DNA of 64,000 nt from Halieaceae bacterium (GTDB taxonomy: Bacteria; Pseudomonadota; Gammaproteobacteria; Pseudomonadales; Halieaceae), in the NCBI GenBank assembly GCA_902520195.1, contig CABYND010000005.1:1-64000 (forward strand), in the 5' to 3' direction. Below the pieces are notes generated by a model. The model saw only the letters and a program-made list of their open reading frames with translations. It did no database searches and had not been told where the DNA came from. How positions within the stretch are numbered: position 1 is the stretch's first letter; the number at the start of each line of letters is the position of its first letter. Position numbers and translations under genes: made by a program. Positions 28,926-54,987 of the stretch are shown one piece after another.

Positions 28926-28933
28926 GAGATTCG

Positions 28934-33257: not shown

Positions 33258-33259
33258 AC

Positions 33260-33757: not shown

Positions 33758-33762
33758 TATCT

Positions 33763-34104
33763 TTAAGTGCCTCGATAGGTGGTGTAGCCATGACCGGAGA
33801 GTAGTAGGGGGATATGATATTTTTCGTTTGCATCCTTTATTCCAAAGACAACATCCACCCATGGGTACAGCGCCTCAGTGTTGAGCGCGGAAAAATATTT
33901 CTCTGTGGCGAATTGCAGTCTGTACAAACCCTGTTCACCATGCGTTGTACCTTGGAGCAAGTCTGTGATCCGTCCGTTCTCGTCTGTCACAGCTTTGCTT
34001 AGAGTCTTCCAGCGGTTTCCAGTCCATTGGCTGAGGGTAACCTCCACCCCAGTCGCAGGGCGCCCCCGAGACGTATCTAAGATGTGGGTGCTGATTTCTG
34101 GCAT
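33763..34104 (-). CDS. uraH: 5-Hydroxyisourate hydrolase (transthyretin-like)
   Basis: Hydrolyses 5-hydroxyisourate to OHCU. Signature N-terminus STHILDTSRGRPA and C-terminal YTTYRGT (usually YRGS). Conserved H of THIL, R in the middle, and terminal YRGT form the active site. 113 residues, normal and without signal peptide, so cytosolic. Its start overlaps the end of uraD by 28 bases. Confidence 0.96.
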   Translation of the reverse strand: MPEISTHILDTSRGRPATGVEVTLSQWTGNRWKTLSKAVTDENGRITDLLQGTTHGEQGLYRLQFATEKYFSALNTEALYPWVDVVFGIKDANEKYHIPLLLSGHGYTTYRGT

Positions 34105-34601: not shown

Positions 34602-34603
34602 TC

Positions 34604-35617: not shown

Positions 35618-35621
35618 TTAT

Positions 35622-35810
35622 CTATCCCGGGTGTCCTGGCATGCGTCTATTGGTTGGGCCGCCACATATCTCTCCATCCTGGTAGATAATTTGTCCCGGG
35701 GGGACTGTGGTGGCTAAAGCACCTTTTATTTGGCGACCTTCGTACGGTTTTAGTTTATGAAGATGTTTAATAATTTCAAAAGTTATTGTGAATTCATCTG
35801 AGGCATCCAC
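35622..35810 (-). pseudogene. allB: C-terminal remnant of allantoinase AllB
   Basis: The 62-codon frame DASDEFTITFEIIKHLHKLK followed by PYEGRQIKG and QIIYQDGEI matches the end of AllB/dihydropyrimidinase proteins (xDPDxEFTVTxExLxHRHKxxPYxGR). The 380-residue catalytic barrel with its metal ligands is absent. So allB was deleted, and PuuE at 23.7 kb supplies allantoin hydrolysis. A short product could still be made from GTG but would be inactive. Confidence 0.78.
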
Positions 35811-35849
35811 TATGCACCGTGATTTCCAAATTTCATATGGTTGTTACAC

Positions 35850-36713
35850 TCACGCCTGTCTTGAGATGCTGTCGAGATTTAGCCGGGTCAAATCTTTCCC
35901 TTGTATCCCCCTGGAGACGTTATTCACAGATTTGGCCTCGTAGTGTTTTACAAGTTGCGCCGCAATAGATATGGCAACTTCCATCGGCCTCTTGCCTTTC
36001 ACCTCGGAGAGTCCTATGGGGCAATGCACATGCTTGTAGCTTTCAGCCGCATAGCCATGATGCTCTAGGCGCATTTGAAAGCGTCGCCATTTAGTCTCAG
36101 AGCCGATCAGCCCGACAAAATCTGCGTCTCGACGATCAATTACAGCGCGTAGAATTTCGTAATCAACCTGGTGGTTGTGAGTCAAAATAATATAGGCGCT
36201 CTCTGGCGGCATCGCTGCAACCTCTGAAGCTGGTTGCTCAGTATCAATAAGCTGTGCACTACCGCCACCAGAGGGTTGTAGTTCAGCCATGCGCGAATCG
36301 ACCCAGCGTAATGCTATCGGAAGCCGATTTAATAAAGGTACAAGAGCCTGGCCAACATGACCGGCTCCGAAAAGCATGAGTGGAAGTCTCGTGGGCATGA
36401 AGCATTCGAACAGGAGATTAACCCTGCCACCACAGCATTGACCCAAGCTTGGCCCTAGCGGAAAGGCCTCAATTCTTTGCGACTGTTTTCCTTCGGCGAG
36501 GAGCTCCGCTGCAATCTTACCTGCACTATATTCGAGGTGTCCCCCTCCGATGGTGCCGCAACTGCTTTCAGTGTTAAACACCATTTTAGTGCCCACATCA
36601 CGCGGTGTTGAACCTTTAGTGCCGAGTACTGTAACTAAGACAAAGGCCTCGCCTTTGGCTTCCAACTCTTGCACTGCGTCTATCCAGTCTGTGTTGGTAT
36701 CAATGTGTGGCAT
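35850..36713 (-). CDS. xdhC: Xanthine dehydrogenase accessory protein XdhC
   Basis: Binds molybdenum cofactor and inserts its sulfurated form into XdhB. N-terminal XdhC/CoxI region has GTKGSTPRDVGTKM and CGTIGGGHLEY; the C-terminal Rossmann part has LMLFGAGHVGQAL and the late CPIGL and RPMEVAISIAAQL. I chose ATG 36713, just past the xdhB stop, over the track start. ~287 residues, normal. Confidence 0.93.
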   Translation of the reverse strand: MPHIDTNTDWIDAVQELEAKGEAFVLVTVLGTKGSTPRDVGTKMVFNTESSCGTIGGGHLEYSAGKIAAELLAEGKQSQRIEAFPLGPSLGQCCGGRVNLLFECFMPTRLPLMLFGAGHVGQALVPLLNRLPIALRWVDSRMAELQPSGGGSAQLIDTEQPASEVAAMPPESAYIILTHNHQVDYEILRAVIDRRDADFVGLIGSETKWRRFQMRLEHHGYAAESYKHVHCPIGLSEVKGKRPMEVAISIAAQLVKHYEAKSVNNVSRGIQGKDLTRLNLDSISRQA

Positions 36714-36720
36714 TTGCTCG

Positions 36721-39048: not shown

Positions 39049-40480
39049 ATTCGGTGACTCTTAGCTCTGAGTCTGAGCATGTTTCCGCCAAAAAAGCTCT
39101 TCGCAGTAAATTGCTTGCGAGCCTTTTTCTGTATGTCGCGCTTGCCCTGAGGTCATCGATAGGCGAGAAGTCCTCTGAGAGAGCTAAGGCAGCCTTATCG
39201 ATTGTTTGAAGGTCAAAAGAAGACCCCTCCAACACTGATTCGCATGCCTTACCTCGGCTTGGTATTTCGGCCATGCCCCCGAAGGCAATTCTCACGTCAG
39301 CAAATCGATTATTTACCTTGCTCCAATGAGCCACCATGCACACTGCGGAGATGTCGTCCTCGAAACGCTTAGTAACTTTATAGGCTCTAACGGTCGCATC
39401 ATTGTGGTTGAAGGGGATGAATATCGATACGATAAATTCTCCGCTCTCAAGCGCTGTTTTTTTATATGAATGGAAAAACTCCCTGATTGGCAGAGTTCGT
39501 GTCGCGACGCCTTTTCGCAATTCAACACTTGCGCCAAGAGCTAATAGCACAGGTGGTGTGTCGCCAACTGGAGACGCATTAGCCACATTTCCACCTATGG
39601 TGGCTTGGTTTCGAATTTGCGGAGAACCGAATCGGAGCAGTAGCTCTTCTAGGGACGGCCAGTGCTGAAGTAGTAAAGGCGTTGCTTCGTTAAGTGTCGC
39701 AGCCGCGCCAATGCGAAGACCTCCACTTACAGCTCCACAAGTGTTCATTTCTTTCACCCTGCCCACGGAAATCAGTAATTCAGGTTCAGCAAGGCCTTGC
39801 GTGATCTCAAGGCTATAATCTGTGCTGCCGGCGACTAATCGCGCTTGGGGGGAACGCTCCAAGGCGGTTGCGACTTCCGCAATGTCAGTGCAGATCTTGA
39901 ACTCTCTGCCATCGGCGTCTTCCGTACTGTCAAATGGTTGTATGGCACGCAATTCCTTTAAAACCTCAAGCTCTAGAGAATCAAAGTGGTCTCCTCCAGA
40001 GTGCATGTTTATTAAGGAGCCTGCCGAGAGGATTGGTTTATAGCCTGTGCACCGGCAAAGGTTCCCAGACAGTGAGTGTAATAAAGCGTTTCTGCCTTGA
40101 TCAGCGCCAGATTTTGAATGTGCGAAGAGAGACATCACTATCCCGGGAGTGCAAAATCCGCATTGTGAGCCGTGCTCATCGATCATAGCCTGCTGGCAAA
40201 TATGCAAGTTTCCGCCGCACGCTAGATTTTCAATGGTCAGAAGCTGTTTGCCATGGATTGTGCCCAGCAAAGTTATGCACGCGTTGATACTTCGATAACG
40301 TAATTTGTTACCTTCCGTTTCCTCGGCTAATACCACAGTGCAAGCTCCACAATCTCCCGAGGCGCACCCTTCCTTTGTGCCGGTTCTGTGAAGTGTCTCG
40401 CGCAGGTACTCGAGGACAGTAGTTTCTGGGCACTGGTCGCTCGCTGTGTGCAAAGCCCCATCTAAAATAAAAGTGGTCAC
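39041..40480 (-). CDS. xdhA: Xanthine dehydrogenase small subunit (2Fe-2S, FAD)
   Basis: Electron-transfer subunit. The plant-type 2Fe-2S cluster is CASGDCGACTVV, the second is CGFCTPG with CRCTGYKPI, and the FAD domain has IRNQATIGGNVANASPVGD. 479 residues, normal. GTG start preceded by GAGG. It follows the AzgA-type permease by 75 bases. Confidence 0.96.
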   Translation of the reverse strand: MTTFILDGALHTASDQCPETTVLEYLRETLHRTGTKEGCASGDCGACTVVLAEETEGNKLRYRSINACITLLGTIHGKQLLTIENLACGGNLHICQQAMIDEHGSQCGFCTPGIVMSLFAHSKSGADQGRNALLHSLSGNLCRCTGYKPILSAGSLINMHSGGDHFDSLELEVLKELRAIQPFDSTEDADGREFKICTDIAEVATALERSPQARLVAGSTDYSLEITQGLAEPELLISVGRVKEMNTCGAVSGGLRIGAAATLNEATPLLLQHWPSLEELLLRFGSPQIRNQATIGGNVANASPVGDTPPVLLALGASVELRKGVATRTLPIREFFHSYKKTALESGEFIVSIFIPFNHNDATVRAYKVTKRFEDDISAVCMVAHWSKVNNRFADVRIAFGGMAEIPSRGKACESVLEGSSFDLQTIDKAALALSEDFSPIDDLRASATYRKRLASNLLRRAFLAETCSDSELRVTEYG

Positions 40481-40555
40481 GTAAACCTCAAAAACATAGC
40501 TTTAAAACTTTCAATATAGGTTCAGTCCCGTAATTCAGTCATGTGTTCACGCTGG

Positions 40556-41845
40556 TTAGGAAAACGCGAATTTAGTGGCAAAAATTGCCGTCAGAAACCA
40601 AGCTCCGCCGGTGACTTCGTGGTGTTTTCCCGAGACCACTTTAAATGTCACATAGCTAACAAAACCCAGGGCAATACCATCTGCTATTGAAAATGACAGC
40701 GGAATCATAATTATAGTGACCAGGGCGGGCAGCAGCTCGGCAGGATCACTCCAAGGCAAATTTTCCATTCCGTCCATCATGAGGAGTGCCACATAGACAA
40801 GGGCGCCTGCAGTAGCAAATGCTGGCACCATGCCAGCTAAGGGAGAAAGGAAAGTAGCGAGTAAAAATAGCAGGCCAACAATACAAGCGGTTAGGCCGGT
40901 GCGACCACCAGCTGAAACTCCAGCCGCGCTTTCCACGTAAGACGTGACTGGCGCACATCCAATTAGCGCACCAGCGACACTACTGGTGCTGTCTGCTCTT
41001 AGCGCCAGATCTAAATCTCGAATATTCCCTCTCTCATCCGCGATACCTGCCTTTGTTGCAACTCCCAATAGTGTCCCGGCTGTATCAAAAAGGTTCACAA
41101 AAAGGATGGAAAGAATAATGCTTACCATGCCGAGCTCGAGAGCGGATACGATATCCAGCTGCATGAATATCGGCGCTATCGTTGGTGGCGCTGAAAAAAT
41201 ACCCTCATAAGTGACAAGGCCTGATGCAAGGCCTAGCACAGTGATAGTCAATACGCCGATTAGGATTGCGCCAGGCACCTTTTTAATTGAGAGCCCCGTA
41301 ATAAGCAGAAAGCCGAATGCTGCCAAAATTGTGTCGACCGTTGTTAATTCCCCAAGTGTCAATAACGTTGAGGGATGGTCTGCGATAATCCCTCCGCTTT
41401 GGAGTCCAATCATTCCGATAAACAACCCAACCCCGGCTCCCATTCCGATCCGCAGGCTCATGGGAATGCTTCCAAGAATCCAAGCTCTTAGCGGGGTCAC
41501 ACTCATCACGACGAACAACACGCCTGCGATAAAAACGGCGCCTAAAGCCACGTTCCAGGAGTAACCCATTTCGGCAACGATGGTGTAAGTGAAAAAAGCA
41601 TTTAAGCCCATGCCCGGTGCAAGACCCACAGGCCAGTTTGCGTAGACGCCCATGACTAAGCAAGCCAATGCAGCGGCAACACAGGTGGCTACAAAACTTG
41701 CACCTTGGTCCATCCCCGCCGCTGCCATCATCTGCGGGTTTACGAAAATGATATAGGCCATGGTAATGAAAGTCGTGAACCCTGCACCGACCTCTCGCCA
41801 CAGAGTTGTATTGTTTTCCTTAAGCCTGAAAAAACTCTCTATCAC
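40556..41845 (-). CDS. NCS2 family permease, AzgA type
   Basis: Inner-membrane purine:H+ symporter of 429 residues. FTTFITMAYIIFVNP and LAPGMGLNAFFTYTIV are AzgA/PbuG marks, and VESAAGVSAGGRTGLTA is the second half signature. It is embedded in the catabolic operon, 16 bases past the deaminase, so guanine or hypoxanthine is the probable cargo. Confidence 0.9.
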   Translation of the reverse strand: MIESFFRLKENNTTLWREVGAGFTTFITMAYIIFVNPQMMAAAGMDQGASFVATCVAAALACLVMGVYANWPVGLAPGMGLNAFFTYTIVAEMGYSWNVALGAVFIAGVLFVVMSVTPLRAWILGSIPMSLRIGMGAGVGLFIGMIGLQSGGIIADHPSTLLTLGELTTVDTILAAFGFLLITGLSIKKVPGAILIGVLTITVLGLASGLVTYEGIFSAPPTIAPIFMQLDIVSALELGMVSIILSILFVNLFDTAGTLLGVATKAGIADERGNIRDLDLALRADSTSSVAGALIGCAPVTSYVESAAGVSAGGRTGLTACIVGLLFLLATFLSPLAGMVPAFATAGALVYVALLMMDGMENLPWSDPAELLPALVTIIMIPLSFSIADGIALGFVSYVTFKVVSGKHHEVTGGAWFLTAIFATKFAFS

Positions 41846-41861
41846 GTGCCAAGCCCCCCGA

Positions 41862-43226
41862 TCATCCCGCTTTAGTCAGCTGACGCGAGAGTTCTCTTTG
41901 TCTAGCTACTAATCTTTCGACATCCACCCCAATTACCTCCCGATCTTTTACTCTCCATTGCCCTCCAACCATTACGCAATCAGCTCGATGAGCTTGGCAA
42001 AGTAGCAGCGCCGCTAGTGGGTCATGACTGCCAGCAAAGTCAAGTTCATCCAATTTGAATAGTGTAAGATCTGCGCAGGCTCCAACCTCTAGTCTACCTA
42101 TATCCGTGCGGCCCAGAACTGACGCAGACCCTGACGTAGCCCACCTCAAAGCGTCTAAATGGGTGAAATTCTCAGAAGAATACCGAAGTTTTTGCAGGTA
42201 CATCGCTTGTCTGACCTCAGCTATCATGTTGCTGGAGTCGTTTGATGCGGAGCCGTCTACGCCAATACCCATTATTGCGCCAGCATGCTCCAGTTCTACT
42301 CCCCGGCAAATACCTGACCCCAGCAGCATATTTGAAGTTGGACAGTGAGTGATTCCTACTTTGGCAGAACCAAGCTGAGCGATTTCTTCCTGATTAAAGT
42401 GAATGCCATGTGCGACCCAAGTGCCGCTGTGCAGCCAGCCCACTTTTTCAAGATATTCCAGAGGCCGTAATCCAAACCTCTGCAGACAAAAAGTTTCCTC
42501 ATCTTGAGTCTCGGCGAGGTGCGTGTGTAGCCGAACATCCAGTTCTTTGGCTAATTCAGCCGTGCTCTTCATTAAATCCTGTGATACTGAAAACGGCGAG
42601 CAGGGTGCTAAGGCGATTTGGACAAGAGCGCCTGAACCTCTGTCATGGAACTTTTTTATCACTCTCTCTGAGTCTTCCATTATCGTTCTCGCACATTGAA
42701 CAGTCTGACTTGGCGGGAGACCTCCGTGTTCGCGGCCAAGTGACATAGACCCCCTCGCCAGTACGACTCGGCAACCTATGGCTTTTGCCGCTTCGACTTG
42801 GATATCGATTGCATTTTCGAGTTGATTTGAAAAGATGTAGTGGTGATCTGCGGTGGTAGTGCAGCCCGACTGAAGGAGTTCCACTAAAGCGACTTGTGAT
42901 GAGGAGCAAATCATCTCTGGGGTGAGCCGGGCCCAGACGGAATATAGGCTTGTTAGCCAATCAAAAAGCTTTTTGTTAATTGCTTCTGGCATTGCACGGG
43001 TCAGTGTTTGGTAGAAGTGATGGTGAGTGTTTACCAAACCAGGTAGTACAACATGTTGCCGAGCGTCAAAAACGGTATCGATTTGTCTTGAGGGTGATTG
43101 CCCCCGCCTCAAAATCTCTGTGATCACGCCGTTGGATACCACTATGCCCTCAGACGCGTCGGCCGTTGTGCCGTTGAATGTGGCGAGTGGCTGTTTGATC
43201 CAAAGGCGGTGTCTTCCACTTTTCAA
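41862..43226 (-). CDS. 8-Oxoguanine deaminase (amidohydrolase)
   Basis: Zinc amidohydrolase of 454 residues that resembles the PA0142 type 8-oxoguanine deaminase, which gives urate plus ammonia. Marks are PGLVNTHHHFYQTLTRA, LFDWLTSLYSVWARL, GCTTTADHHYIF, HTHLAETQDEE and GVDGSASND. The deaminase would feed oxidised guanine directly into the urate step of the same operon. S-adenosylhomocysteine or other guanine-like deaminases are alternatives, less likely given the NTHHHFYQ motif. Confidence 0.85.
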   Translation of the reverse strand: MKSGRHRLWIKQPLATFNGTTADASEGIVVSNGVITEILRRGQSPSRQIDTVFDARQHVVLPGLVNTHHHFYQTLTRAMPEAINKKLFDWLTSLYSVWARLTPEMICSSSQVALVELLQSGCTTTADHHYIFSNQLENAIDIQVEAAKAIGCRVVLARGSMSLGREHGGLPPSQTVQCARTIMEDSERVIKKFHDRGSGALVQIALAPCSPFSVSQDLMKSTAELAKELDVRLHTHLAETQDEETFCLQRFGLRPLEYLEKVGWLHSGTWVAHGIHFNQEEIAQLGSAKVGITHCPTSNMLLGSGICRGVELEHAGAIMGIGVDGSASNDSSNMIAEVRQAMYLQKLRYSSENFTHLDALRWATSGSASVLGRTDIGRLEVGACADLTLFKLDELDFAGSHDPLAALLLCQAHRADCVMVGGQWRVKDREVIGVDVERLVARQRELSRQLTKAG

Positions 43227-43349
43227 GGGCTTAAACTCACTTTTAACGAAGCCGATTTCATTCTATCGGAGCCTACATCCAATGCTCAAAATCTGATCTC
43301 ACTCAACGCCCTAGTTTTAGCGCGCACTGCTAGCGCTCCGCCAACTCAC

Positions 43350-44699
43350 CTATTTCGATCTTGCCTTCACTGTCAGACGATCTGGCAACAACGCGTGTAA
43401 TAGAATCGCGGTGAGTCCTGCAGTTGCTGCAGCAGAGCCGAGTACGGTTTTAAGTAAGGTGGGCAGCCCATCGACGGCTCCAGGCACCAAGCTTGGGCCT
43501 AAGCCCAGGCCGAGCGAAATGCCGATGATCATGAGTTGTCGCCTGTTGAGTTCCAAGCTACCCAATATAGCCAGCCCCGTTGCGGCGACCGACCCAAACA
43601 TGAGCATCGTGGCACCTCCAATGACAGGTTTTGGTATCAGTTGCAGGATGTCACCCAAACTCTGAACGAGGCCCAGTATCATGAGCATACAGGCAACGTA
43701 AATGCCCACATGCCTGCTCGCTATGCCCGTTAGCTGGATGACGCCGTTATTTTGGCTGAAGGTTGTGTTAGGAAATGAGTTAATTGTGGCGGATATGAGG
43801 GAATTTATTCCGTCAGCTAAGACGCCTCGGCGGACTCGATCTAGGTAAGCACTACCGCGCACTGGTTGGTCGCAAATGGAGCAGTTCGCGGTGATGTCTC
43901 CTGCAGTTTCCACCGAGCTAATTAAAAAAATCACCGCTATTGGAATGAATGCCAGAGCGTCAAAATCAAGGCCGTATAAAAATGGGGTTGGCACCGATAC
44001 GTTTGTGCTCACGTGAAATTCAGATGGTGAGAGCTCACCCATCAACAAAGCCAAGATTAAGCCCACGATCAGCCCAGCAAGGATAGACGACAGTCTTACC
44101 CAATCATTATTGGAACAGTTCAAGACTATTACTGTCACGATCACTGCAAGGCCCAGGAACAAGTTAGCAGGGCTACCAAAGCTTTCAGCGGCAAGCCCAC
44201 CTGCTAAATCTGTCATGGCGACCTTAATTAGACTGACACCAATACTTGTCACCACAATGCCCGTAACGAGAGGTGTGATGAATTTCTTCAATTTTGGAAT
44301 AAACGGACTCAAGGCAATCTGCAAGACTGAACCTGCTATGCATAAACCGAAAATCAAACTCAGCAGGTCTGTCGAGGTACCTCCAGACTCTCTGACATAC
44401 AGCCCAATAGTTATGATTACTCCCACAAATGTGAAGCTAGTGCCTTGCAAGCAAAGCATTTTTGCTCCTATGCCAAAAGGTTGGGTGGCTTGAATCAATG
44501 TGCCGATACCCGAGGCAATTAGCGACATGCTGATCAGGTAAGAAATCTCAGCACCAAGGTCGAGCACGTCCCCAATAATGAGGGCGGGTGTTACTATGCC
44601 AACAAACGATGCTAGCAGGTGTTGAACGCCCGCAAACAGAGATTTTAGGGGAGGGGGGCGATCTTCAAGGGCGTAGATCAACTCTGAATTAATCGACAT
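43350..44699 (-). CDS. NCS2 family uric acid/xanthine permease
   Basis: Inner-membrane nucleobase symporter of the NAT branch (UraA/XanQ/PbuX), about 449 residues. NAT features include LQGTSFTFVGVI, ISSVETAGDITANC and the signature QNNGVIQLTG. I chose ATG 44699 after GGTGA. It appears to be the first gene of the purine catabolic operon. Cargo is probably xanthine or urate. Confidence 0.88.
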   Translation of the reverse strand: MSINSELIYALEDRPPPLKSLFAGVQHLLASFVGIVTPALIIGDVLDLGAEISYLISMSLIASGIGTLIQATQPFGIGAKMLCLQGTSFTFVGVIITIGLYVRESGGTSTDLLSLIFGLCIAGSVLQIALSPFIPKLKKFITPLVTGIVVTSIGVSLIKVAMTDLAGGLAAESFGSPANLFLGLAVIVTVIVLNCSNNDWVRLSSILAGLIVGLILALLMGELSPSEFHVSTNVSVPTPFLYGLDFDALAFIPIAVIFLISSVETAGDITANCSICDQPVRGSAYLDRVRRGVLADGINSLISATINSFPNTTFSQNNGVIQLTGIASRHVGIYVACMLMILGLVQSLGDILQLIPKPVIGGATMLMFGSVAATGLAILGSLELNRRQLMIIGISLGLGLGPSLVPGAVDGLPTLLKTVLGSAAATAGLTAILLHALLPDRLTVKARSK

Positions 44700-44871
44700 T
44701 GCGAAATCACCGTCTAGTTCTCCCAATTCACTGCGGAGCGAGTTTTCGGCGCCTAATCAGATCGAAAGTCTGGACCAAGCCAATAAAAAAGTGTGGTTAG
44801 ATCGGCTCGTTAGGGCGGAACTGGTTCTCAAGTAGTGACCGAATCGGTTGTGGGCACAGGCCTCGTCCACA

Positions 44872-45588
44872 TCATCTTGTTGCAGGGTAGGAAAGCTTGT
44901 CAATCAAGTCGCCGTGTTGCGGAAAGTCTCTTTTCAACAAAGTGCTCGAGCCTAGCGTCATATCGTCGTAGTTGAAACTTGGGCTGACAGCTTCACTGAT
45001 CAAACCATAACCAAAAGCGCCATTTTCTTTTAGGAGTGAGGCTTTCCAGACGCCCCCTGGAACTACCAGCTGGAGCTGGTGACCATCTTCAATGTTGTGC
45101 CCGAGTGTCACCTCTTCCAGTACTCCGTCCGGATGTATCAAGAAATAAACGATTGCGTCACCCATGTGGAAAAAGTGAACAATGTCTGATTTGTTACGGT
45201 GGAAGTGTCCGACTGGTGATTCTGAGTTGAGGAGATAATAAATCGAGCTCATGGCCTTTCTGCCAAGAGAGGTCTCCCCCTCGCTGGCAGAGTAATCTGA
45301 TATGAAGGTGCGTCTGAAATAACCCCCCTCTATGTGCTTCACCAACCCTAAAGCCTTGATTACCGACTCGGATATAGATGAGGGAGCCCCGACCGCCGTC
45401 ATGTCTTCGGATGTTGATGCATGACTGAAGGTTGAGAGGACTATCGCCATCCAGAGCAGTGTGCGGGGTGGGCTGCTTCGAATGCGGCGAGGAGAAATTT
45501 GTCCACACCTTTCAGTTCGAATTCCGCCAGCACTCCCTTTGCTGCTCATACTTGCCCTTCGTTGCAATCTGCATAACTTAAACATCAC
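44872..45588 (-). CDS. DUF985 cupin-like protein, probably secreted
   Basis: 238 residues. The C-terminal two-thirds match the DUF985 (YML079w-like) cupin family: LGLVKHIEGGYFRRT, SIYYLLNSESPVGHFHRN, LVVPGGVWKAS and FGYGLISEAVSPSF. A hydrophobic stretch (TLLWMAIVLSTFSHAS) after a basic N-terminus suggests export; starts at MSSKGS or MAIVLS are possible. Function unknown. Same strand as, and just upstream of, the purine operon. Confidence 0.72.
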   Translation of the reverse strand: MMFKLCRLQRRASMSSKGSAGGIRTERCGQISPRRIRSSPPRTLLWMAIVLSTFSHASTSEDMTAVGAPSSISESVIKALGLVKHIEGGYFRRTFISDYSASEGETSLGRKAMSSIYYLLNSESPVGHFHRNKSDIVHFFHMGDAIVYFLIHPDGVLEEVTLGHNIEDGHQLQLVVPGGVWKASLLKENGAFGYGLISEAVSPSFNYDDMTLGSSTLLKRDFPQHGDLIDKLSYPATR

Positions 45589-45752: not shown

Positions 45753-48269
45753 CTAAAAACGATACTCCATTTTGAAGACGTAGTGCCGTGGAAGCTCTGG
45801 AAGCACAATCATAGATCCGAACAGATTGGGGAAATTTGATCGGAAATATAGCTCGTCAGACAGGTTTTTGCCTGTGAGTGTGAAACTCCACTGCTCAGTC
45901 TCGTACCCTATGCTCGCGTTGACGAGAGTGTAAGAAGGCAAAGTGATACTGTTAGAAAATCCGGATGGGACCGACTCGACGTCAGCGACGCTAGCGCTCA
46001 CATTTATGCCGTTGTCGAAGAGATAAGTTCCATAAACTGAAAAAATATTCTCTGGCATGCCGGCCCTTCTGCCCCCGCTTGCCGCTACGTTTACAGGGCC
46101 TCCAATCACTCCACCAATGTGTAACTCTGGGGGGATGTTAGGCAAGTCGTCGATGCCATAATGACTGTAACGGCTGCCGTTCTCTAGACTATTCAGGTTG
46201 ACCGCTTCAACGTCAGTGTACGTGGCACCAACAAATAGGGCGTCAGTGACGGCCCACCTCAACTCAAACTCTATCCCTTCAGTCCTTACTGACTGGTTGG
46301 TCACCGTCGATTGCGCAGAGAAATCAGTTCTTTCCTGTTCATAAAATGAAAGTGAGAAGTATAGGTTCTTATCTTTAAGTATTTGCCCTTTTACACCAAA
46401 CTCGGTGAGCTCGGAGGTATCAAATGCCTCGCCACTCATAATGTTGCTGACAGTAATTTCAGCTCCCTGGCCTGCAATGACGGTAGCTTGCTCTGACAAG
46501 GTGACGTAGGGGATTATGCCCGTGTCACCAATTTCGTAAGACGCGCTGAACGTCCAGGAGGTTCCATCAACGTCGTCACTCGCCGCTAAGTCGACACAAC
46601 TCCCGTCCACACAGGGGTTTTGCGCTCCGTTAGCAAGTAACAGCTTGTCCAGCGGCTGCATGCTCTCCATGTCGATAAAGTCATGTCGGGCACCAAACAT
46701 GACTGAAAATCCATTATTCCAAACAAGGTCTGCCATGAAACCGATGGCTACGTCGGTGTACTCACCAATGTAGTACTCCACGTAATCATCGTCGATACGC
46801 GTAGCTAACAACCGAGCATCGAGGGCGCCGCTGGGCATGGTTAGGTCTCGTCTATTGAAATACTCGTTTATCCAGTCGTCTGCGTGGGCAAAATCTGTAA
46901 ACCGAATTGAGGGGGATATCTGAACAGACGCAGTAAGGTTATTGAATTCCTTAGTGGTACCAAAGATGAGCTTTTCTTCGATGACATAACTATCGTGAAA
47001 TTGCGAAAAGCCATACGCGTTCTCATTCAGATTGTCATATTCTTCGTAAAAAAGTTTGTTCGTTATCGTCCACTCGCTTGCTGTTTCATACACGAGGTCA
47101 AAGTACAGAGTAGTTACTTCGTTCTCGAGTGTGTCGTCGGCTGCGATAAGGGTGACGCTAGGGTCCAGCGTTGTGGTACCAACATTTTCTAGCGCCATAG
47201 CGTCAAACTGCTCGGCAGATAAGAACTGATCATTGATTGTCTGACTGGAATTTGCAGTTAAGCCTCCGGTGCCGAAGTTCCACCAGGCGAAAGGGTTAAG
47301 ATCATCGACAAACCCATCATTATTTATATCGAATTCCTGGTGTGAGATCTTACCGTCACCATTAGTGTCTAACGGTTTGGCGGTGCCGGTAATGTAGGTA
47401 CCGTTGTCTACCAAATCTTGTGTGATTCGATTCCATCCCGCGTTCTGAGAGCCTTGGTAATCGTGGTACATGGCGCCGAACTGGATACGCAGGTTATCTG
47501 ACAGGTCTACTTCAAAGCTGGCTTGGATCAGAGTCTGCTCGACTCCTGGATGATTTACATAGTAAGAATCCGAGTTCTCCAACTCGCCATAGATGTAATA
47601 ACCCATTGGCTTTCCGAATAGCTCGCCCGGTCCACCAATTTCTGCTGTTAAGACACTTCGGTCCCAAGAGCCTCCAGAGTAGGAGATAGCGCCAGTCACG
47701 TCCTCGATAAACGCGCCGGTCTCCTCGACTCTCGCCGACTTAGGATTAAAGTTTAAGTATCCCCCGATTTTCGCCGGTCCATAAATTGGAGAAGCCGGGC
47801 CCCTGACAATGTCGACCCGATCCGAAGCGCCAATCGGCGTGGGGTAGTTGCCTGGGTTGTCCAACCGCCGCATTCCCCTAAAGTATGTTTCTCCGGGAGT
47901 TCCCCTTACGTCAAGCGCTCCAGCAACACCAAAAAAAGACTGGGTGAAGGAGCCAGGCGTAACAACTACCAACTCGTCGATATCGCTCATGTTGAAACGG
48001 TCCATCATCTCTTCACTGATGGTTGACGCACTTCGAGGTGTCTCGACGATAGACTTGTTGAAGCCAAATATCGAGTCTACGTTCTCGCCGGGAAGACTAT
48101 TCAGAGTGCCGGTTACTACAACTTCTTCGATCTCTGGATCTTGTGCGGAAGCTGTGAGTGGGAGTGCAGTCAGGGAAGACAGAAGCGCTGCAATCACCCA
48201 TCGAGTCCACGATGAGGCGGCCGCCGTTGTTACAGCATTTGCGGTAGCTGAAAATATATTTTGCATCAT
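45753..48269 (-). CDS. TonB-dependent outer-membrane receptor with EF-hand-like loops
   Basis: 838-residue TonB receptor: long signal region ending PLTASA, TonB box-like EEVVVTG, plug domain (TPRSASTISEEMMDRF, RVDIVRGPASPIYGP), then a beta-barrel ending in an aromatic (FKMEYRF). Unusual are two calcium-loop sequences in an outer loop, DTNGDGKISHQE and DINNDGFVDDLN. The gene is transcribed from a sigma-54 type promoter (48373-48388). Given the purine neighbours, purine nucleosides, nucleotides or nucleic acid fragments are the inferred ligands; siderophore uptake is the default alternative. Confidence 0.9.
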   Translation of the reverse strand: MMQNIFSATANAVTTAAASSWTRWVIAALLSSLTALPLTASAQDPEIEEVVVTGTLNSLPGENVDSIFGFNKSIVETPRSASTISEEMMDRFNMSDIDELVVVTPGSFTQSFFGVAGALDVRGTPGETYFRGMRRLDNPGNYPTPIGASDRVDIVRGPASPIYGPAKIGGYLNFNPKSARVEETGAFIEDVTGAISYSGGSWDRSVLTAEIGGPGELFGKPMGYYIYGELENSDSYYVNHPGVEQTLIQASFEVDLSDNLRIQFGAMYHDYQGSQNAGWNRITQDLVDNGTYITGTAKPLDTNGDGKISHQEFDINNDGFVDDLNPFAWWNFGTGGLTANSSQTINDQFLSAEQFDAMALENVGTTTLDPSVTLIAADDTLENEVTTLYFDLVYETASEWTITNKLFYEEYDNLNENAYGFSQFHDSYVIEEKLIFGTTKEFNNLTASVQISPSIRFTDFAHADDWINEYFNRRDLTMPSGALDARLLATRIDDDYVEYYIGEYTDVAIGFMADLVWNNGFSVMFGARHDFIDMESMQPLDKLLLANGAQNPCVDGSCVDLAASDDVDGTSWTFSASYEIGDTGIIPYVTLSEQATVIAGQGAEITVSNIMSGEAFDTSELTEFGVKGQILKDKNLYFSLSFYEQERTDFSAQSTVTNQSVRTEGIEFELRWAVTDALFVGATYTDVEAVNLNSLENGSRYSHYGIDDLPNIPPELHIGGVIGGPVNVAASGGRRAGMPENIFSVYGTYLFDNGINVSASVADVESVPSGFSNSITLPSYTLVNASIGYETEQWSFTLTGKNLSDELYFRSNFPNLFGSMIVLPELPRHYVFKMEYRF

Positions 48270-48287: not shown

Positions 48288-48331
48288 TTGTTGACGGTTT
48301 TATACCCGCTTGTTGACGGTTTTATACCCGC
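48288..48331. repeat. Perfect 22-bp tandem duplication in the TonB receptor leader
   Basis: Two adjoining copies of a 22-mer starting TTGTTGACGGTTTTATACCC. They lie between the sigma-54 promoter and the receptor ATG, so they would be in the transcript. Each transcript copy carries a CAACAA element next to GTATAAAA. Operator or RNA-level control site are both possible. Confidence 0.85.
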
Positions 48332-48372: not shown

Positions 48373-48388
48373 TGCAGAAAACGTGCCA
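48373..48388 (-). promoter_or_regulatory. Sigma-54 (-24/-12) promoter for the TonB receptor
   Basis: Minus strand TGGCACGTTTTCTGCA: GG and GC are ten bases apart and ten of eleven consensus positions (TGGCACG-N4-TTGCA, one change) match. Predicted start lies about 90 bases upstream of the receptor ATG. Confidence 0.8.
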
Positions 48389-48549
48389 TTCAGTGCAATT
48401 TTCGATTGAGAATCCGCGAAAAAATGTGGAGCAGGCGTTAAGTGGAGAAAAACAAATGTTATTTTCAGCTAGTGCACTCTTTTTTCTCAGCGGTTTTTTT
48501 GAACATTCGTGCCGAGACAACCTTGCGCACCCGGCTGCCTCGAAAAAAA

Positions 48550-48566
48550 CGCACCGTGGTAGTGCA
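48550..48566. promoter_or_regulatory. NtrC-like enhancer site in the divergent region
   Basis: CGCACCGTGGTAGTGCA fits the palindromic NtrC consensus TGCACCA-N3-TGGTGCA closely. It is about 100 bases from the plus-strand promoter and about 165 from the minus-strand one, standard enhancer distances. A further half-site, CGGTGCA, follows at 48581. Confidence 0.62.
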
Positions 48567-48662
48567 GTAGAAGGCCCGAATCGGTGCATTTCTCAGCATT
48601 AGACCCCCCGGCAGATCTCGCAGTGTTGGTCCATTAACTCGACCACTAGGGGAATTTTTAAC

Positions 48663-48679
48663 TTGGCACGCTTCCTGCA
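48663..48679 (+). promoter_or_regulatory. Sigma-54 (-24/-12) promoter for the NUP/adenosine deaminase genes
   Basis: TTGGCACGCTTCCTGCA: canonical GG-N10-GC spacing and one mismatch to TGGCACG-N4-TTGCA. The predicted start is ~160 bases before the NUP ATG, and GCGGATTTCCGC right after it may form a leader hairpin. The whole 579-base gap 48270-48848 holds no gene that I can support. Confidence 0.82.
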
Positions 48680-48848
48680 AGCGGATTTCCGCGGGAGCGC
48701 TGAAGAGGGGCGTTCGCTTACCAGAGTGTCGCAGACCTCATGGCTAGTAGCCTAGAGGCTCTCGCTAAGATGCACGCATTTGCACTCCGTTCGCTGAAGG
48801 TTGAGGCCAAACTCCATATGATTACGTTTGTTCCGAGGTGAACAGTAA

Positions 48849-49994
48849 ATGACAAAGAACATAAAGATCCCACAGTCGCGCTACGTTCGACTCGTTTCTA
48901 TCTTATTGTATACCTTGTTTTTTACTTGCTTGAGTTCATGCGGTGTTGAGGATACTTCGCACGCCGCTGAACTACCGAATCCTCAATCGCAGCTCCCAGT
49001 CAAGATCGTCCTTGTGACGATGTTTGAGATTGGTGATGACCTTGGCGACGCGCCGGGAGAATTTCAGTTTTGGAGAGAGCGACGCAATCTTTATCAGAAA
49101 ATCGACTTTCCACATTCCCATCACGACCTTTTTTACAACCCTAACAGTCAAATTTTGGGACTGGTTACGGGCATAGGTACTGCGAAGGCTGCCAGTGCGA
49201 CGATGGCCCTAGGCCTTGACGATCGCTTCAACCTCTCAAAGGCCTATTGGCTGGTTGCAGGCATCGCTGGTATTGATCCTGAGGACGCTTCTATTGGCTC
49301 TGTGGTTTGGTCATCAGTTTTAGTTGATGGAGATCTAGGTTACGAGATTGACAGCCGCGAGATGCCAAGGGATTGGAGCACCGGGTATTTTTCTTTTAAG
49401 ACGAAGGAACCTTTTGCACAACCACGACCTGAGCTTCCTATGGGTGAGGTTTTCACAACTAATACTGGATTGCGAGACTGGGCTTTTGAGTTGACGAAAA
49501 ACCTTGAGCTGATGGACAGCTCCGAGTTTCAAGCGCTGCGGGAGGCCTATGTGGATCACCCTGCCGCGCTGAGACCGCCGTTTGTGTTAACGGGCGGTCA
49601 TCTGGCGGCGATGACCTATTGGCATGGCGCCCTTAAAAATGCGTGGGCGAATGAGCTGGTTAGATATTGGTCAGATGGCGAGGCTAACTTCGTAACTTCT
49701 GCGATGGAGGAAACTGGCACTTTCCAGTCTATTACTTACCTTGACAATGCAGGGTTGGTGGACAAAACGCGGTTCCTGGTGCTTAGAGGAGGAAGCAATT
49801 TCACTATGCAACCACCGACACTTACAGCCGCACAAAGCCTTCTAAGGGAATCGGATGGATATGCGGGGTTAGAGGCGTCTCTGGAAAACGTCTACCTTGC
49901 AGGGTCAGTTGTTATAGATGAGCTCCTGACTGGATGGGATCAGTACTCCGAGAATGTCCCTACAGCTGAGGGGCTTCCGGAGAACGCGGAATAA
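48849..49994 (+). CDS. Purine nucleoside permease (NUP) family lipoprotein
   Basis: 381 residues of the PF06516 family, named after a fungal purine nucleoside permease but with a nucleoside-phosphorylase-like fold. It has a lipoprotein signal (LLYTLFFTCLSSCG) and no other membrane helix, so it cannot be a channel; FNLSKAYWLVAGIAGIDPED and YWHGALKNAWANELV are family marks. I infer a periplasmic, membrane-anchored nucleoside-binding or cleaving protein. The TAATG overlap couples it to the secreted adenosine deaminase. Driven by a sigma-54 type promoter. Confidence 0.82.
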   Translation: MTKNIKIPQSRYVRLVSILLYTLFFTCLSSCGVEDTSHAAELPNPQSQLPVKIVLVTMFEIGDDLGDAPGEFQFWRERRNLYQKIDFPHSHHDLFYNPNSQILGLVTGIGTAKAASATMALGLDDRFNLSKAYWLVAGIAGIDPEDASIGSVVWSSVLVDGDLGYEIDSREMPRDWSTGYFSFKTKEPFAQPRPELPMGEVFTTNTGLRDWAFELTKNLELMDSSEFQALREAYVDHPAALRPPFVLTGGHLAAMTYWHGALKNAWANELVRYWSDGEANFVTSAMEETGTFQSITYLDNAGLVDKTRFLVLRGGSNFTMQPPTLTAAQSLLRESDGYAGLEASLENVYLAGSVVIDELLTGWDQYSENVPTAEGLPENAE

Positions 49995-51634
49995 TGGGCG
50001 GCAATGCTGAGAGTGCGACACGGAAACTAGTTAGGTTTTGTCGCGCTCGAGGATCTCGGAGTGCTTTGCGCGCGTCAGCTAGGTGGACAAATTTTGTCAT
50101 GCTGTCGCTGATCCTCTCTCCGGCATTAGCAAAGTCTGCGGATAATTTGAATTTCAGTGTTTCAGTGCTGTTCGAGGAAATTAAAGCAAAGCCTGTGGAG
50201 CTTAGGCATTTTTTGCAAAACTTTCCCAAGGGCGGCGATCTACACAGCCACCTCTCTGGTGCAGTTTACGCAGAGTCATATCTTGCAATCGCTTTAGAGC
50301 GCGATCTGTGTGTGAGCCTGGAGAGCAAAATATTGTTAAAGCCACCTTGCGATCCAGTAAAAAGCCCATTACTGCGATCAGTCCTAGACAATAAGGATGA
50401 ATTCGGCTTCGAAAACTTCAATCATCTAGTAAATGCGTTGTCCACTCGATATTACAGGCTGCAGTCTGTATCAGGGCGAGATCAATTCTTCTCAACTTTC
50501 CAAAGATTTTTCCAGGCTCTCGATGGAAGCAGAGGCGACATGCTTGCGGAAGTGGTCGCAAGGGCCGGCAGACAAAAAATCCTATATCTTGAGTTGATGC
50601 AAAGCCTGGGTATGTTTGAGGTAGCGCAAAAAGCTAGGTCACATGGTGATATAGACGCGCCTTTCGGTTCGAGAATTGACCACTCAATGATAGACGCTGA
50701 AGTCGTAAAGGTTGTTAAGCGGCTCGATAAAATTGAGGCACGAAGTGACGCATTACTTGGCTGCGGCAGTAGCTCTGCTGAACAAAGACAGGGGTGCTCG
50801 GTTGAGGTCAGATACCTCGCTCAGGTGATCAGAGAGCTATCGCCTATTGAGGTATACGCACAGGCTCTTTTGGCTTTTAAATTGATCGAATCAGACGACC
50901 GCGTGGTTGGCCTTAATTTTGTGGCTCCGGAAGACAGCCCCGTTGCCTTGCGTGACTACAAGCTCCACATGAAATGGATAGCTGAGTTGAATAAGAATTT
51001 TCCTGCGGCCGAGGCAGGAGTCTCGTTGCATGCCGGCGAGCTTACTTTGGGGCTAGTTCCGCCGCGTCACTTAGGTTGGCATATAAGGGAGGCCGTCATG
51101 GTGGCGGGAGCGGATCGTATCGGTCACGGAATCGATATTTCCCATGACGAGCAGATGTACGAGACGCTGACTTACATGGCCAAAAACAAAATCGCAGTGG
51201 AAATAAATTTAACCAGTAATGAAGTAATCTTGGGCGTCCAGGGTGAGGACCATCCGTTTACCACGTATAAGGCCAACGGTGTGCCTCTTACAATCTCTAC
51301 CGATGATGAGGGAGTATCCAGAACAGACTTGACGAACGAATATTACCGTTTGGTGAAGACTTATGATATTGACTACGCGACTCTGGTGTCGCTCTCTAGA
51401 AACTCCCTTCAGTACAGTTTTTTACCCGGCGCATCCCTGTTCGAAGATACGTACACTGGCCGAAAGACTGAGGAGTGTCGACAAATTGCGGATTCAAAGT
51501 CTTCAAAGCCGATAGACTCTTGCGCCGAATTCCTATCAGGCAGCTATAAGGCGTCGTTACAATGGGAGCTAGAGCAAAATTTTTCTTCGTTCGAGGCCTA
51601 CATCAAAAGTCAGTTTGATATGTTGAACCCTTAA
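49994..51634 (+). CDS. Secreted adenosine deaminase (ADGF/ADA2-like)
   Basis: 546-residue adenosine deaminase family protein, longer than cytosolic Add (~330). Zinc and catalytic residues: HSH in GGDLHSHLSGA, HAGE, RIGHGI and STDDEGV. The N-terminus has a basic region then a hydrophobic segment (NFVMLSLILSPALA), and paired cysteines (CVSLESK...PPC, CGSSS...GC, CRQ...SC) fit an exported disulfide-bonded protein. It would turn external adenosine into inosine, releasing ammonia before uptake. Substrate could also be deoxyadenosine. Confidence 0.85.
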   Translation: MGGNAESATRKLVRFCRARGSRSALRASARWTNFVMLSLILSPALAKSADNLNFSVSVLFEEIKAKPVELRHFLQNFPKGGDLHSHLSGAVYAESYLAIALERDLCVSLESKILLKPPCDPVKSPLLRSVLDNKDEFGFENFNHLVNALSTRYYRLQSVSGRDQFFSTFQRFFQALDGSRGDMLAEVVARAGRQKILYLELMQSLGMFEVAQKARSHGDIDAPFGSRIDHSMIDAEVVKVVKRLDKIEARSDALLGCGSSSAEQRQGCSVEVRYLAQVIRELSPIEVYAQALLAFKLIESDDRVVGLNFVAPEDSPVALRDYKLHMKWIAELNKNFPAAEAGVSLHAGELTLGLVPPRHLGWHIREAVMVAGADRIGHGIDISHDEQMYETLTYMAKNKIAVEINLTSNEVILGVQGEDHPFTTYKANGVPLTISTDDEGVSRTDLTNEYYRLVKTYDIDYATLVSLSRNSLQYSFLPGASLFEDTYTGRKTEECRQIADSKSSKPIDSCAEFLSGSYKASLQWELEQNFSSFEAYIKSQFDMLNP

Positions 51635-51859
51635 AAAGAGAAGGGCCCTCAGAGAACGCAAATCGAGATGTAGATTTGAAGGTTCTAACCCCTACAAACA
51701 TGCAGCTTGAGCACAAGGCGAGTAACCCCCAAATTAGACTGACACTCTTTTCCGCAAATTTTTTCTCAATCAGAGCCTTTTCAGACTAGTGTTTTGACGC
51801 CGCCATCTGTATATCTATCGAATGGAAAGCGTGCCCTTAGCGAAGGATATCTCGATACG

Positions 51860-52438
51860 ATGAGTAACAAGGTATACCTCTCGGCCGACAAGCTGTTACA
51901 TGACTCATTTCGTCTGGCTGGGCGTGTCTTTGCAAGCGGGTTTGCGCCAACAGTGATTATCGCGATATGGCGCGGAGGCGCGCCTATTGGTATCGCTGTC
52001 CAAGAGTTTCTTGCCTACTGTGGGATTGAGACCGACCATATCGCCATCCGCACTTCGTCCTACGGCCCAGGCATCGACGAGAGACTTGGTGGAATTCGGG
52101 TCCACGGCCTCAATTATCTGGTCAAAAACGTCACGGCTGAGGACAAGCTTTTGATTGTGGACGACGTGTTTGACACTGGACGTACTGTGGATGCGGTTAT
52201 TCACAGACTGTCCGAGTTGGCGCGCCTGAATACCCCCACTGAAATTCGCATAGCAGTGCCGTACTACAAACCTACTAGGCGGGAGGTTGATCGTGTACCC
52301 GAATATTTTCTCGAAGAAACCGATGCTTGGCTGATGTACCCGCATTCATTGGAAGGGCTTACTGTTGACGAAATTAGGGAGCATCGGCCAGCTTTGTTTG
52401 ACATTATCAAGGAGCGGCTGCCAGCACGCGCCCCTTGA
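51860..52438 (+). CDS. Phosphoribosyltransferase, paralogue of 29856-30449
   Basis: Type I PRTase, about 192 residues. PRPP loop LLIVDDVFDTGRTV near 110; IIAIWRGGAPIG is the pyrophosphate loop. I chose ATG 51860, ten bases after AAGGAT; the ORF track start adds 22 residues. Shares RIAVPYYKPT and VHGLNYL with the paralogue but differs at many sites, so the split is old. Presumably salvages a 6-oxopurine delivered by this locus. Confidence 0.82.
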   Translation: MSNKVYLSADKLLHDSFRLAGRVFASGFAPTVIIAIWRGGAPIGIAVQEFLAYCGIETDHIAIRTSSYGPGIDERLGGIRVHGLNYLVKNVTAEDKLLIVDDVFDTGRTVDAVIHRLSELARLNTPTEIRIAVPYYKPTRREVDRVPEYFLEETDAWLMYPHSLEGLTVDEIREHRPALFDIIKERLPARAP

Positions 52439-52497
52439 CTGACCATCTCCCGACTCTGTGTGCACTCAGGACAACACTAGCCTTCGCTCGCTCTAGT

Positions 52498-54774
52498 CTA
52501 AAAATCAATGCCCACTCTGGCCATTAGCACTCGCGGTGGAATGAATTGGTCACCAGTGGCGCCTACTCCAAATACATCAGTGAATCTGGCGTTTACACCG
52601 TCCTCGTCCGTCAGATTTTTCGCTATAAGCTCTAATCGCCAGTTGCTGTCAGAGGGTAGAATTCTTATCACGAGATCCAAAGTGTCGTAGCTGTCTACGT
52701 CGTCCGTCAGAGGGTTGTTAAACATTCGGTGTTTAAAATCTCCCCGATGTGTATAACTGAGGGTGCCGCCGATATCTCCAAAACCATCAATGCTTTTGTT
52801 GTAGGACAGGGCGAGATTCGCAGTAAAACTCGGAGTTTTTGGTAATTCGTTGCCTTCAACATCCGCTATCGCCTCAGCTCTGGCCATTTGAATTTCTGGA
52901 CCGAACTGAAAGACTCCCTGCGCGAGCAAAGCATTGGTTGCTGCATCTGACGCTACGTTGTCAATAGCAAGATGGCTCGCGGTTATTTCAGTCTCCAGTA
53001 ATGCAATTCTTGCATCGAAAACCAGCGAGTCGGTGAGAAACGCCCCAAGTTCGATCTCCGCCCCATAGATTTCCGATTCAGGAACATTGCCTACACCACC
53101 TTGGAACAATTCAGGGTCAGTGGCTTGATATTGTAAGTTGTCATACTCGTAAAAGAACATGGCGCCATTTAATCGGACCCTGCCGTCCGCAAGGTCGGTT
53201 TTGAGCCCGACCTCGTAAGCATCAATGGTCTCTTCCTCAAAAACAGGCAACACCACTATGGGGGCGATCACATCCTCCCTGCCGAAAGTGAGATTCGAGC
53301 CTCCCGGCTTGAATCCGCGTGTGTACGACGCGTATGCCATCGAAGCGTCGGATAGATCCATCTCGAAAGCTAGACGGCCTGTCACCTTCTCGGACTCAAT
53401 TTCCAGAATATCAGTGCCGCCCCTTCCGAAAAAGTTTGTTACGGAACTGTAAACCTCGTCCTCGGTGTACCGAAGGCCAGCAACAAGTCTAGAGCTGTCT
53501 GTCAAGCTCCAAGTGCCTTGTCCGTATATCGACATGGATTCCCGCTCTGGTTTTGAGTCAGATATGAAGCCCACCTCGCCACCATAGAACAGGACCTCTT
53601 CGACGACGATAGGGGCAAAGGCGCCGTCGAAGTTAAAATCTAAACGTTCTCTAATAAGAATGTCGACTTCGGTATCCAGATAGAAAATCCCGGCGACCCA
53701 ATCAAGCTTGCCAAAGGCTGGCTCATTCGAAATCAGGTTGAATTCCTGTGTCGTAGTTTTTTGTTCGTTTATTTCAGGATCGAAGTAGCTTTGAAGCAGG
53801 AAAAACGGAGGAAGTGTCCTGTAATCATGCCGATCATTGTCTCGTTGGATCGAAATTTCGTCATTTTGATAACTGGTTAGTGACTTGAGCGTAGCTCCTC
53901 CCAAGTCCCATTCGAGGGTAAGGCTATATAATTGAGATTCGAGGTCGTAGCTGGAGAGCGAATCTTGTGCAAGGTTCCTGGCACCAGGCGTAGGATCGAA
54001 AATGCCTTTTTGGGCCTGACCGTTCACGTCCTCCTCGAAGTGTTGCGCGGTGAAAGTGGCAGAGAAAGTGTCGCTAGGCTGAAATAGCAGTTTAAAACGC
54101 GCTGAAATGCTGTCGGCATCATCCAAGTCTTGTCCATTACCGACATTGTCCGAAAAACCATCATGCTGGTGTTTCATCACCGATACCCGCGCTGCGACGG
54201 TGTCGGACATGGGAATGTTCATCGCTGCTCTAGCTCTAATTAAGCTGTACTCACCCAGTGCCAAATCCGCGGTACCGTAAAAATCGTCGAAGGTGGGTGC
54301 TTTTGTGATGACATTGATGCCTCCTCCCGTCGAATTCTGGCCAAACAGCGTGCCCTGAGGCCCCCTTAAAACCTCTACACGCTCTAAATCTAGGAAGTCG
54401 GTTTGCAGTGCGAAGGGTGATGCTACGTAGACGCCGTCTAGGTGATAAGAGACAGAGGGGTTAGCTATCGCGTTTTGGTTGGCTTCGTTTCCAATACCGC
54501 GGATAGTGATGACCGTTTTGAAGCCTTCGTTTTTGGCCACATTGACGCCTGGTGCAATCGCGCTCAAATCTACAAAGGAGCTTAATTGTCGGTTCTCGAC
54601 GTCTTCGGCACTGAGCGCAGTAACCGCCTGTGACAGATCCTGCAGGCTTTCAGTTCGTTTCTCTGCAGTTACCAATACCTCCTCAAAAATGGGCGCTTGT
54701 TGTGCCCAGGTGCCGCATGTCAGCGAACCCATAAATAGGCCTAAAGCCGCAGTTGGATAGCGTAAGTTCGACAT
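52498..54774 (-). CDS. TonB-dependent outer-membrane receptor
   Basis: 758 residues with signal peptide (MSNLRYPTAALGLFMGSLTC...WAQ), TonB box-like FEEVLVTAEKR, plug (SLQDLSQAVTALSAEDVENR, LRGPQGTLFGQNSTGG) and barrel ending in GIDF. It belongs to the CirA/FyuA-like set common in marine gammaproteobacteria. A near-perfect sigma-54 promoter and two NtrC-like sites precede it, so nitrogen limitation should induce it. A purine-type ligand is inferred from position. Confidence 0.92.
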   Translation of the reverse strand: MSNLRYPTAALGLFMGSLTCGTWAQQAPIFEEVLVTAEKRTESLQDLSQAVTALSAEDVENRQLSSFVDLSAIAPGVNVAKNEGFKTVITIRGIGNEANQNAIANPSVSYHLDGVYVASPFALQTDFLDLERVEVLRGPQGTLFGQNSTGGGINVITKAPTFDDFYGTADLALGEYSLIRARAAMNIPMSDTVAARVSVMKHQHDGFSDNVGNGQDLDDADSISARFKLLFQPSDTFSATFTAQHFEEDVNGQAQKGIFDPTPGARNLAQDSLSSYDLESQLYSLTLEWDLGGATLKSLTSYQNDEISIQRDNDRHDYRTLPPFFLLQSYFDPEINEQKTTTQEFNLISNEPAFGKLDWVAGIFYLDTEVDILIRERLDFNFDGAFAPIVVEEVLFYGGEVGFISDSKPERESMSIYGQGTWSLTDSSRLVAGLRYTEDEVYSSVTNFFGRGGTDILEIESEKVTGRLAFEMDLSDASMAYASYTRGFKPGGSNLTFGREDVIAPIVVLPVFEEETIDAYEVGLKTDLADGRVRLNGAMFFYEYDNLQYQATDPELFQGGVGNVPESEIYGAEIELGAFLTDSLVFDARIALLETEITASHLAIDNVASDAATNALLAQGVFQFGPEIQMARAEAIADVEGNELPKTPSFTANLALSYNKSIDGFGDIGGTLSYTHRGDFKHRMFNNPLTDDVDSYDTLDLVIRILPSDSNWRLELIAKNLTDEDGVNARFTDVFGVGATGDQFIPPRVLMARVGIDF

Positions 54775-54826
54775 CTCAAATCTCCAGAAGGTGTTTTGGT
54801 GGGCTGTTGATCATTCGATAAGCACT

Positions 54827-54842
54827 TGCAATCTGCGTGCCA
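54827..54842 (-). promoter_or_regulatory. Perfect sigma-54 promoter for the second TonB receptor
   Basis: Minus strand TGGCACGCAGATTGCA matches TGGCACG-N4-TTGCA at every consensus position. The predicted start is about 40 bases upstream of the receptor ATG. Confidence 0.9.
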
Positions 54843-54938
54843 ACTGCACACTTGCGCCCAGTATCCAAAGAGCTACGGGATTTATTCTGAGGGCGACTTA
54901 AATGGACCTCACAGATGTCCTTAATCCTGAGCTGTTTT

Positions 54939-54955
54939 TGCACTGAAATGGTGCG
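54939..54955. promoter_or_regulatory. NtrC-like site 1 upstream of the second TonB receptor
   Basis: TGCACTGAAATGGTGCG matches TGCACYA-N3-TGGTGCA at all but two positions and lies about 100 bases upstream of the -24 element. Confidence 0.72.
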
Positions 54956-54958
54956 ATT

Positions 54959-54974
54959 CGGCACATTTTTTGCT
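54959..54974 (+). promoter_or_regulatory. Candidate sigma-54 promoter facing the ncRNA
   Basis: CGGCACATTTTTTGCT has the GG-N10-GC spacing on the plus strand, between the two NtrC-like sites. It is weaker than the others and points to the stretch ending in the ncRNA. Confidence 0.35.
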
Positions 54975-54987
54975 CTTAATTGGTGCG
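54971..54987. promoter_or_regulatory. NtrC-like site 2 upstream of the second TonB receptor
   Basis: TGCTCTTAATTGGTGCG has a full TGGTGCR half and a degenerate left half. It is 32 bases, three helical turns, from site 1, the spacing favourable for cooperative NtrC binding. Confidence 0.6.

Follow-up and report, generated by a model that had tools for sequence, protein, structure and literature searches.

TonB-dependent receptors are usually viewed as being under iron, vitamin or substrate control. The closest described counterparts of the promoters analyzed here belong to glnA (glnALG), GlnII and amtB-glnK, in which a GCAC-N7-GTGC palindrome lies upstream of a TGGCAY-N5-YTGCW sigma-54 element, often with a second, weaker site ~31-32 bp away. 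In the NtrC-RpoN regulon of Escherichia coli, the NtrC box has 17 bp, TGCACCAnnnTGGTGCA (PMC8743547), and is the counterpart of the palindromes described below; TonB does not appear in the main text of that study, and for xanthine it has a single entry, a peak of NtrC binding in vitro that lies between xdhB and xdhC (PMC8743547). In Flavobacteriia, predicted sigma-54 sites, called unconfirmed by the authors, have been located near TonB genes (COG0810) (PMC12316311); this case resembles ours in being a computed link of sigma-54 to TonB-dependent import, but it concerns the TonB energiser, and purines have no entry in that study. A literature search, with subscription journals mostly outside its reach, found no report of a purine TonB receptor under NtrC/sigma-54 control. 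Promoters of the NtrC/sigma-54 type are classic; a purine TonB receptor would be a new target for them.

We analyzed a window of 64,000 nucleotides (positions 1 to 64,000 of contig CABYND010000005.1 of a Halieaceae bacterium). The 580-bp region from which the genes of a TonB-dependent receptor (TBDR1) and of NUP-family and adenosine-deaminase-family proteins (NUP and ADA) diverge is very likely an enhancer-dependent, nitrogen-regulated divergent promoter, with a second module of this kind predicted to drive another receptor gene, TBDR2 (Table 1). The layout is similar to that of the glnA/GlnII region of the same genome, which is also divergent and has sigma-54 elements toward both genes. It differs from the glnA/GlnII/amtB-glnK promoters in its targets, a TonB-dependent receptor and NUP/ADA instead of genes for assimilation or inner-membrane transport, and in the unequal spacing of its arms, the palindrome being 98 bp from the NUP-facing element and 162 bp from the TBDR1-facing element.

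Table 1. Genes and predicted regulatory sites of the purine locus, in window coordinates
Feature	Position	Strand	Remarks
Purine catabolic array downstream of TBDR1	30751-45588	-	no gap >232 bp
TBDR1, TonB-dependent receptor (Plug domain)	45753-48269	-	first gene of purine catabolic array
Sigma-54 promoter element TGGCACGTTTTCTGCA	48388->48373	-	faces TBDR1; one deviation (C for T)
NtrC-type palindrome CGCACCGTGGTAGTGCA	48550-48566	none	between TBDR1- and NUP-facing elements
Weaker NtrC-type site AGGCCCGAATCGGTGCA	48572-48588		22 bp from CGCACCGTGGTAGTGCA
Sigma-54 promoter element TGGCACGCTTCCTGCA	48664->48679	+	faces NUP/ADA; one deviation (C for T)
NUP-family protein (PF06516)	48849-49994	+	lipoprotein-like N-terminus (FFTCLSSCG, by eye)
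ADA, adenosine-deaminase-family protein (A_deaminase)	49994-51634	+	start codon overlaps NUP stop
TBDR2, TonB-dependent receptor	52498-54774	-	
Sigma-54 promoter element, perfect, TGGCACGCAGATTGCA	54842->54827	-	faces TBDR2; predicted start ~54816
NtrC-type palindrome TGCACTGAAATGGTGCG	54939-54955 (arms 54940-54954)	none	TBDR2
Weaker NtrC-type palindrome	54971-54987		32 bp upstream of TGCACTGAAATGGTGCG

The first-pass annotation had proposed TGGCACG-N4-CTGCA elements facing both ways with an NtrC-like palindrome between them. The two elements are found exactly where it had placed them; both have the GG-N10-GC spacing and, counted against TGGCACGN4TTGCW, deviate by having C in place of the first T in TTGC. 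The palindrome was confirmed as well, and its arms form a perfect GCAC-N7-GTGC (48551-48565). The predicted transcription starts are at ~48362 for TBDR1 (leader of ~93 nt) and at ~48690 for NUP/ADA (leader of ~159 nt). A third sigma-54 element, located before TBDR2 and accompanied by its own palindrome, had been overlooked; the distance between the two is 97 bp, compared to 98 bp at NUP. Relative to the sigma-54 consensus, TGGCAY-N5-TTGCW with GG-N10-GC spacing, there are thus two one-deviation sites and one perfect site, and GCAC-N7-GTGC enhancer-type sites lie upstream of a sigma-54 element both at 48551-48565 and at 54940-54954.

We used a first-order Markov simulation of the same 579 bp to estimate chance occurrence. 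Of 20000 simulated sequences, 1 contained the forward element, 3 the reverse element and 34 the palindrome; the palindrome together with an element was never obtained (0/20000). Exact TGGCACGN4YTGCW sites number four in the 2.14-Mb genome, and three of these are located within 6.5 kb (48373-54842), each facing a receptor or NUP. There are 17 GCACYN5RGTGC palindromes genome-wide, versus 5 matches to the reversed control, and a sigma-54 site (at most 1 mismatch, within 60-260 bp) accompanies only those of glnA/GlnII, NUP/TBDR1 and TBDR2. These sites are best read as sigma-54 promoters with an NtrC-type enhancer, a reading that the data support.

For comparison with other genomes, we defined a strict composite as GCACYN5RGTGC followed by TGGCAYN5YTGCW 75-105 bp later; the NUP-facing element together with CGCACCGTGGTAGTGCA satisfies this definition. 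Within the genus (57 genomes), the composite has 29 matches and the reversed pattern has none. The gene 3' of the composite, as assigned by BLAST, is glnA in 23 cases, GlnII in 2, NUP in 1 and TBDR2 in 2 (the source genome and G022), with one match lacking an assigned gene. Across the order (195 genomes), the count of matches beyond the window is 68 and, again, 0 for the reversed pattern; glutamine synthetases are downstream of 37 of the 68. From the other 31, we scanned 20, whereas the remaining 11 were judged by eye. The scanned genes include those for transport and signalling (TorF-type porins, ammonium transporters, P-II, a formate/nitrite transporter and an NMT1-like binding protein), for enzymes (nirB-like and molybdopterin reductases, urease gamma), and for a histidine kinase of NtrB layout, a chemoreceptor and one seemingly unrelated HAD/acyltransferase; by eye, the remaining 11 are like these, save one unassigned. 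TonB receptors are absent among the genes downstream of these 68 composites, under the same combination of scan and inspection. Since the downstream genes are nearly all nitrogen genes (glnA, GlnII, amtB/glnK, nirB, nas and ure among them), the composite, as judged from these matches, marks nitrogen genes specifically, and a TonB receptor is an uncommon predicted target. It should be noted that the CTGC form of the sigma-54 element, as in the divergent region, also occurs in relatives, in the promoters of amt/P-II and TorF porin genes.

The divergent TBDR1 / NUP-ADA order is kept in six gammaproteobacterial loci (L053-L058), one of which, L053, is titled as K189A clade, an OMG-group lineage; the TBDR1 orthologs in these loci are 72-74% identical. 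An alignment of the divergent regions with MAFFT was uninformative, and footprints were read from motif scans with fixed geometry. A TBDR1-facing sigma-54-like element is present in 6/6 loci, in five at no more than 2 mismatches and in L058 at 3, and an NtrC-like site lies upstream of it at 80-81 bp in five loci and at 71 bp in the sixth, the sites in L055 and L058 being weak (5 mismatches of 14). Among 28 TBDR1 relatives, 13 have the element at no more than 2 mismatches, versus 1.7% of shuffles, although the shuffles ignore relatedness and the contrast is only indicative; the relatives with the element include Alteromonadaceae and Pseudoalteromonas loci, and it is mostly missing in those of Novosphingobium and Solimonas. 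The putative TBDR1-facing promoter is conserved across genera. A NUP-facing element was found in 0/6 divergent loci even at 3 mismatches, save one poor, misplaced match in L057. NUP was not found in any other genus genome searched, so this arm cannot be footprinted within the genus, and the support for its predicted function comes solely from the sequence of the element and its spacing.

TBDR2 has orthologs in 22 of 57 genus genomes, and all 20 with upstream DNA keep the -24/-12 core. In these 20 orthologs, only 9 of 450 bp upstream are invariant columns, and 8 of the 9 make up the TGGCA + TGC core. In most of the orthologs, NtrC-like sites lie ~100 bp farther upstream, often paired 31-32 bp apart. 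The next gene after TBDR2 is a Xan_ur_permease in 17 of the 18 genus contexts examined, which ties this receptor to purines or related nucleobases. In the exception, G022, TBDR2 is instead accompanied, as in the window, by a phosphoribosyltransferase gene and, at the contig edge, by the end of an ADA gene. In the source genome, a Xan_ur_permease (40556-41845) is ~11 kb from TBDR2, inside the catabolic array.

Representing the locus as a nitrogen switch, we suggest the following sequence of events. Under nitrogen limitation, NtrB would phosphorylate NtrC, and NtrC~P would bind the palindrome at 48550-48566, oligomerise and contact the sigma-54 RNA polymerase bound at one or the other -24/-12 element. 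Transcription would start on the minus strand for TBDR1, with possible extension into the genes of the purine catabolic array, and on the plus strand for NUP-ADA; the module at 54827-54955, with the same layout, would start TBDR2. In this scheme, NtrC binding, sigma-54 dependence, the sharing of one palindrome between the two arms and read-through are inferred, as is the uptake of purines by the receptors. Both NtrC (TIGR01818, 733.9 bits versus a cut-off of 558.6) and NtrB (323.5 bits versus a cut-off of 240) are encoded, by genes beside glnA. The rpoN gene was not found in the assembly, which is 69% complete. It is present in 32/38 genus/order genomes and in 8/10 genomes with TBDR1-type loci; in G006, its position is between lptB and hpf, with kdsD, rapZ and mgtE nearby. 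Because these neighbours (kdsD, lptB, rapZ, mgtE and hpf) are likewise missing from the source assembly, including lptB, which is essential in E. coli, a gap in the assembly is the most likely cause, and a loss of rpoN was rejected. Another genome, G017, is rated 100% complete and yet is without the kdsD-lptB-rpoN-rapZ-mgtE block; thus, completeness figures can miss such gaps.

Several observations count against the divergent-promoter model. They include the missing NUP-facing elements and the weak NtrC-like sites of some relatives, the TBDR1 relatives of Novosphingobium and Solimonas that mostly lack the elements, and the absence of rpoN from the assembly. In addition, 162 bp separate the TBDR1 arm from the full palindrome, versus 80-81 bp in relatives and 80-98 bp elsewhere, and CGCACCGTGGTAGTGCA is picked up as a terminator-like hairpin on the minus strand as well. 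We did not adopt the terminator as an explanation of the palindrome, since its counterpart at TBDR2 is without a T tail and has no gene running into it on that strand. Three other explanations were weighed. Coincidental matches in intergenic DNA are hardly credible: across the whole window, sigma-54 sites at no more than 2 mismatches show no excess (10 seen, 12.9 expected), so the case has to be made from near-exact sites and conservation, and the simulation, the zero counts of the reversed-pattern controls and the cross-species footprints all speak against coincidence. It is improbable that real sigma-54 promoters are driven here by a different enhancer-binding protein. Three sigma-54 activators are encoded, and the two that sit in the flagellar cluster would be the candidates; these two, however, score below the NtrC cut-off. 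The palindromes agree with the NtrC box, and in related bacteria they are seen again at glnA, amt and nir genes.

It is somewhat less improbable, but still unlikely, that TBDR1 and TBDR2 alone are driven by NtrC and sigma-54, with a fortuitous or weak match facing NUP and NUP-ADA transcribed from another promoter. Such a reading would be consistent with a credible NUP-facing site in none of the six divergent loci, compared to a TBDR1-facing site in all of them, and the absence of NUP from the other genus genomes searched leaves this arm beyond the footprint there. On the other hand, the element is near-exact, with 0.00014 expected per strand in the region; its distance to the palindrome nearly equals that at TBDR2 (98 and 97 bp); and it belongs to a composite whose other matches are nearly all at nitrogen genes. 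The tie to nitrogen status proposed in the first-pass annotation is supported, within limits: the sigma-54/NtrC reading is favored by the nitrogen genes that the composite marks and by the encoded NtrB and NtrC, but conservation in the six loci does not extend to the NUP arm, and the TBDR1 arm has an unusual distance to the full palindrome. The same annotation had called the deamination external, for which N-terminal sequences read by eye are the entire basis.

Returning to the nitrogen-regulated divergent promoter, the genes that it would serve form a pathway. The array encodes a cupin, two Xan_ur_permeases, 8-oxoguanine deaminase, xdhA/B/C, guanine deaminase, urate oxidase (PF06181), OHCU decarboxylase, allantoicase and ureidoglycolate lyase, and a urease cluster (24553-29572) lies beyond it. 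Terminator-like sites are absent from the gaps of the array, although the scan itself performed at chance level. Between 24553 and 51634, the window contains a nearly full route from purine import to ammonia, from receptors, permeases and deaminases through xanthine dehydrogenase to urease.

The glutamine-synthetase switch is found at predicted purine import genes and recurs at their counterparts in relatives, which suggests that purine scavenging belongs to the response to nitrogen starvation. A broader proposal, for and against which we see about equal weight, is that purine import across the outer membrane is a nitrogen-starvation function in the OMG group and in some Alteromonadales-type marine bacteria, in which NtrC and sigma-54 would drive dedicated purine/nucleoside TonB receptors and, via read-through in this species, a 17.5-kb pathway from purine import to urea release. 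If this is true, a shortage of nitrogen would be the specific cue for some marine bacteria to let dissolved purines through the outer membrane, and the regulation by the conserved module would hint at substrates for receptors that otherwise have none assigned.

Several minor observations were made along with these analyses. TorF-family putative porins lie directly 3' of strict composites in L202, L214, L215, L228, L231, L239, L253 and L258, among others in the order, which suggests possible nitrogen control of a further outer-membrane protein. In L030 (5036-7905), genes for type II and type I glutamine synthetases are divergent, with sigma-54 elements toward both and NtrC-type sites between them. 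Within the predicted TBDR1 leader, there is a perfect 22-bp tandem duplication, TTGTTGACGGTTTTATACCCGC occurring twice (window positions 48288-48331).
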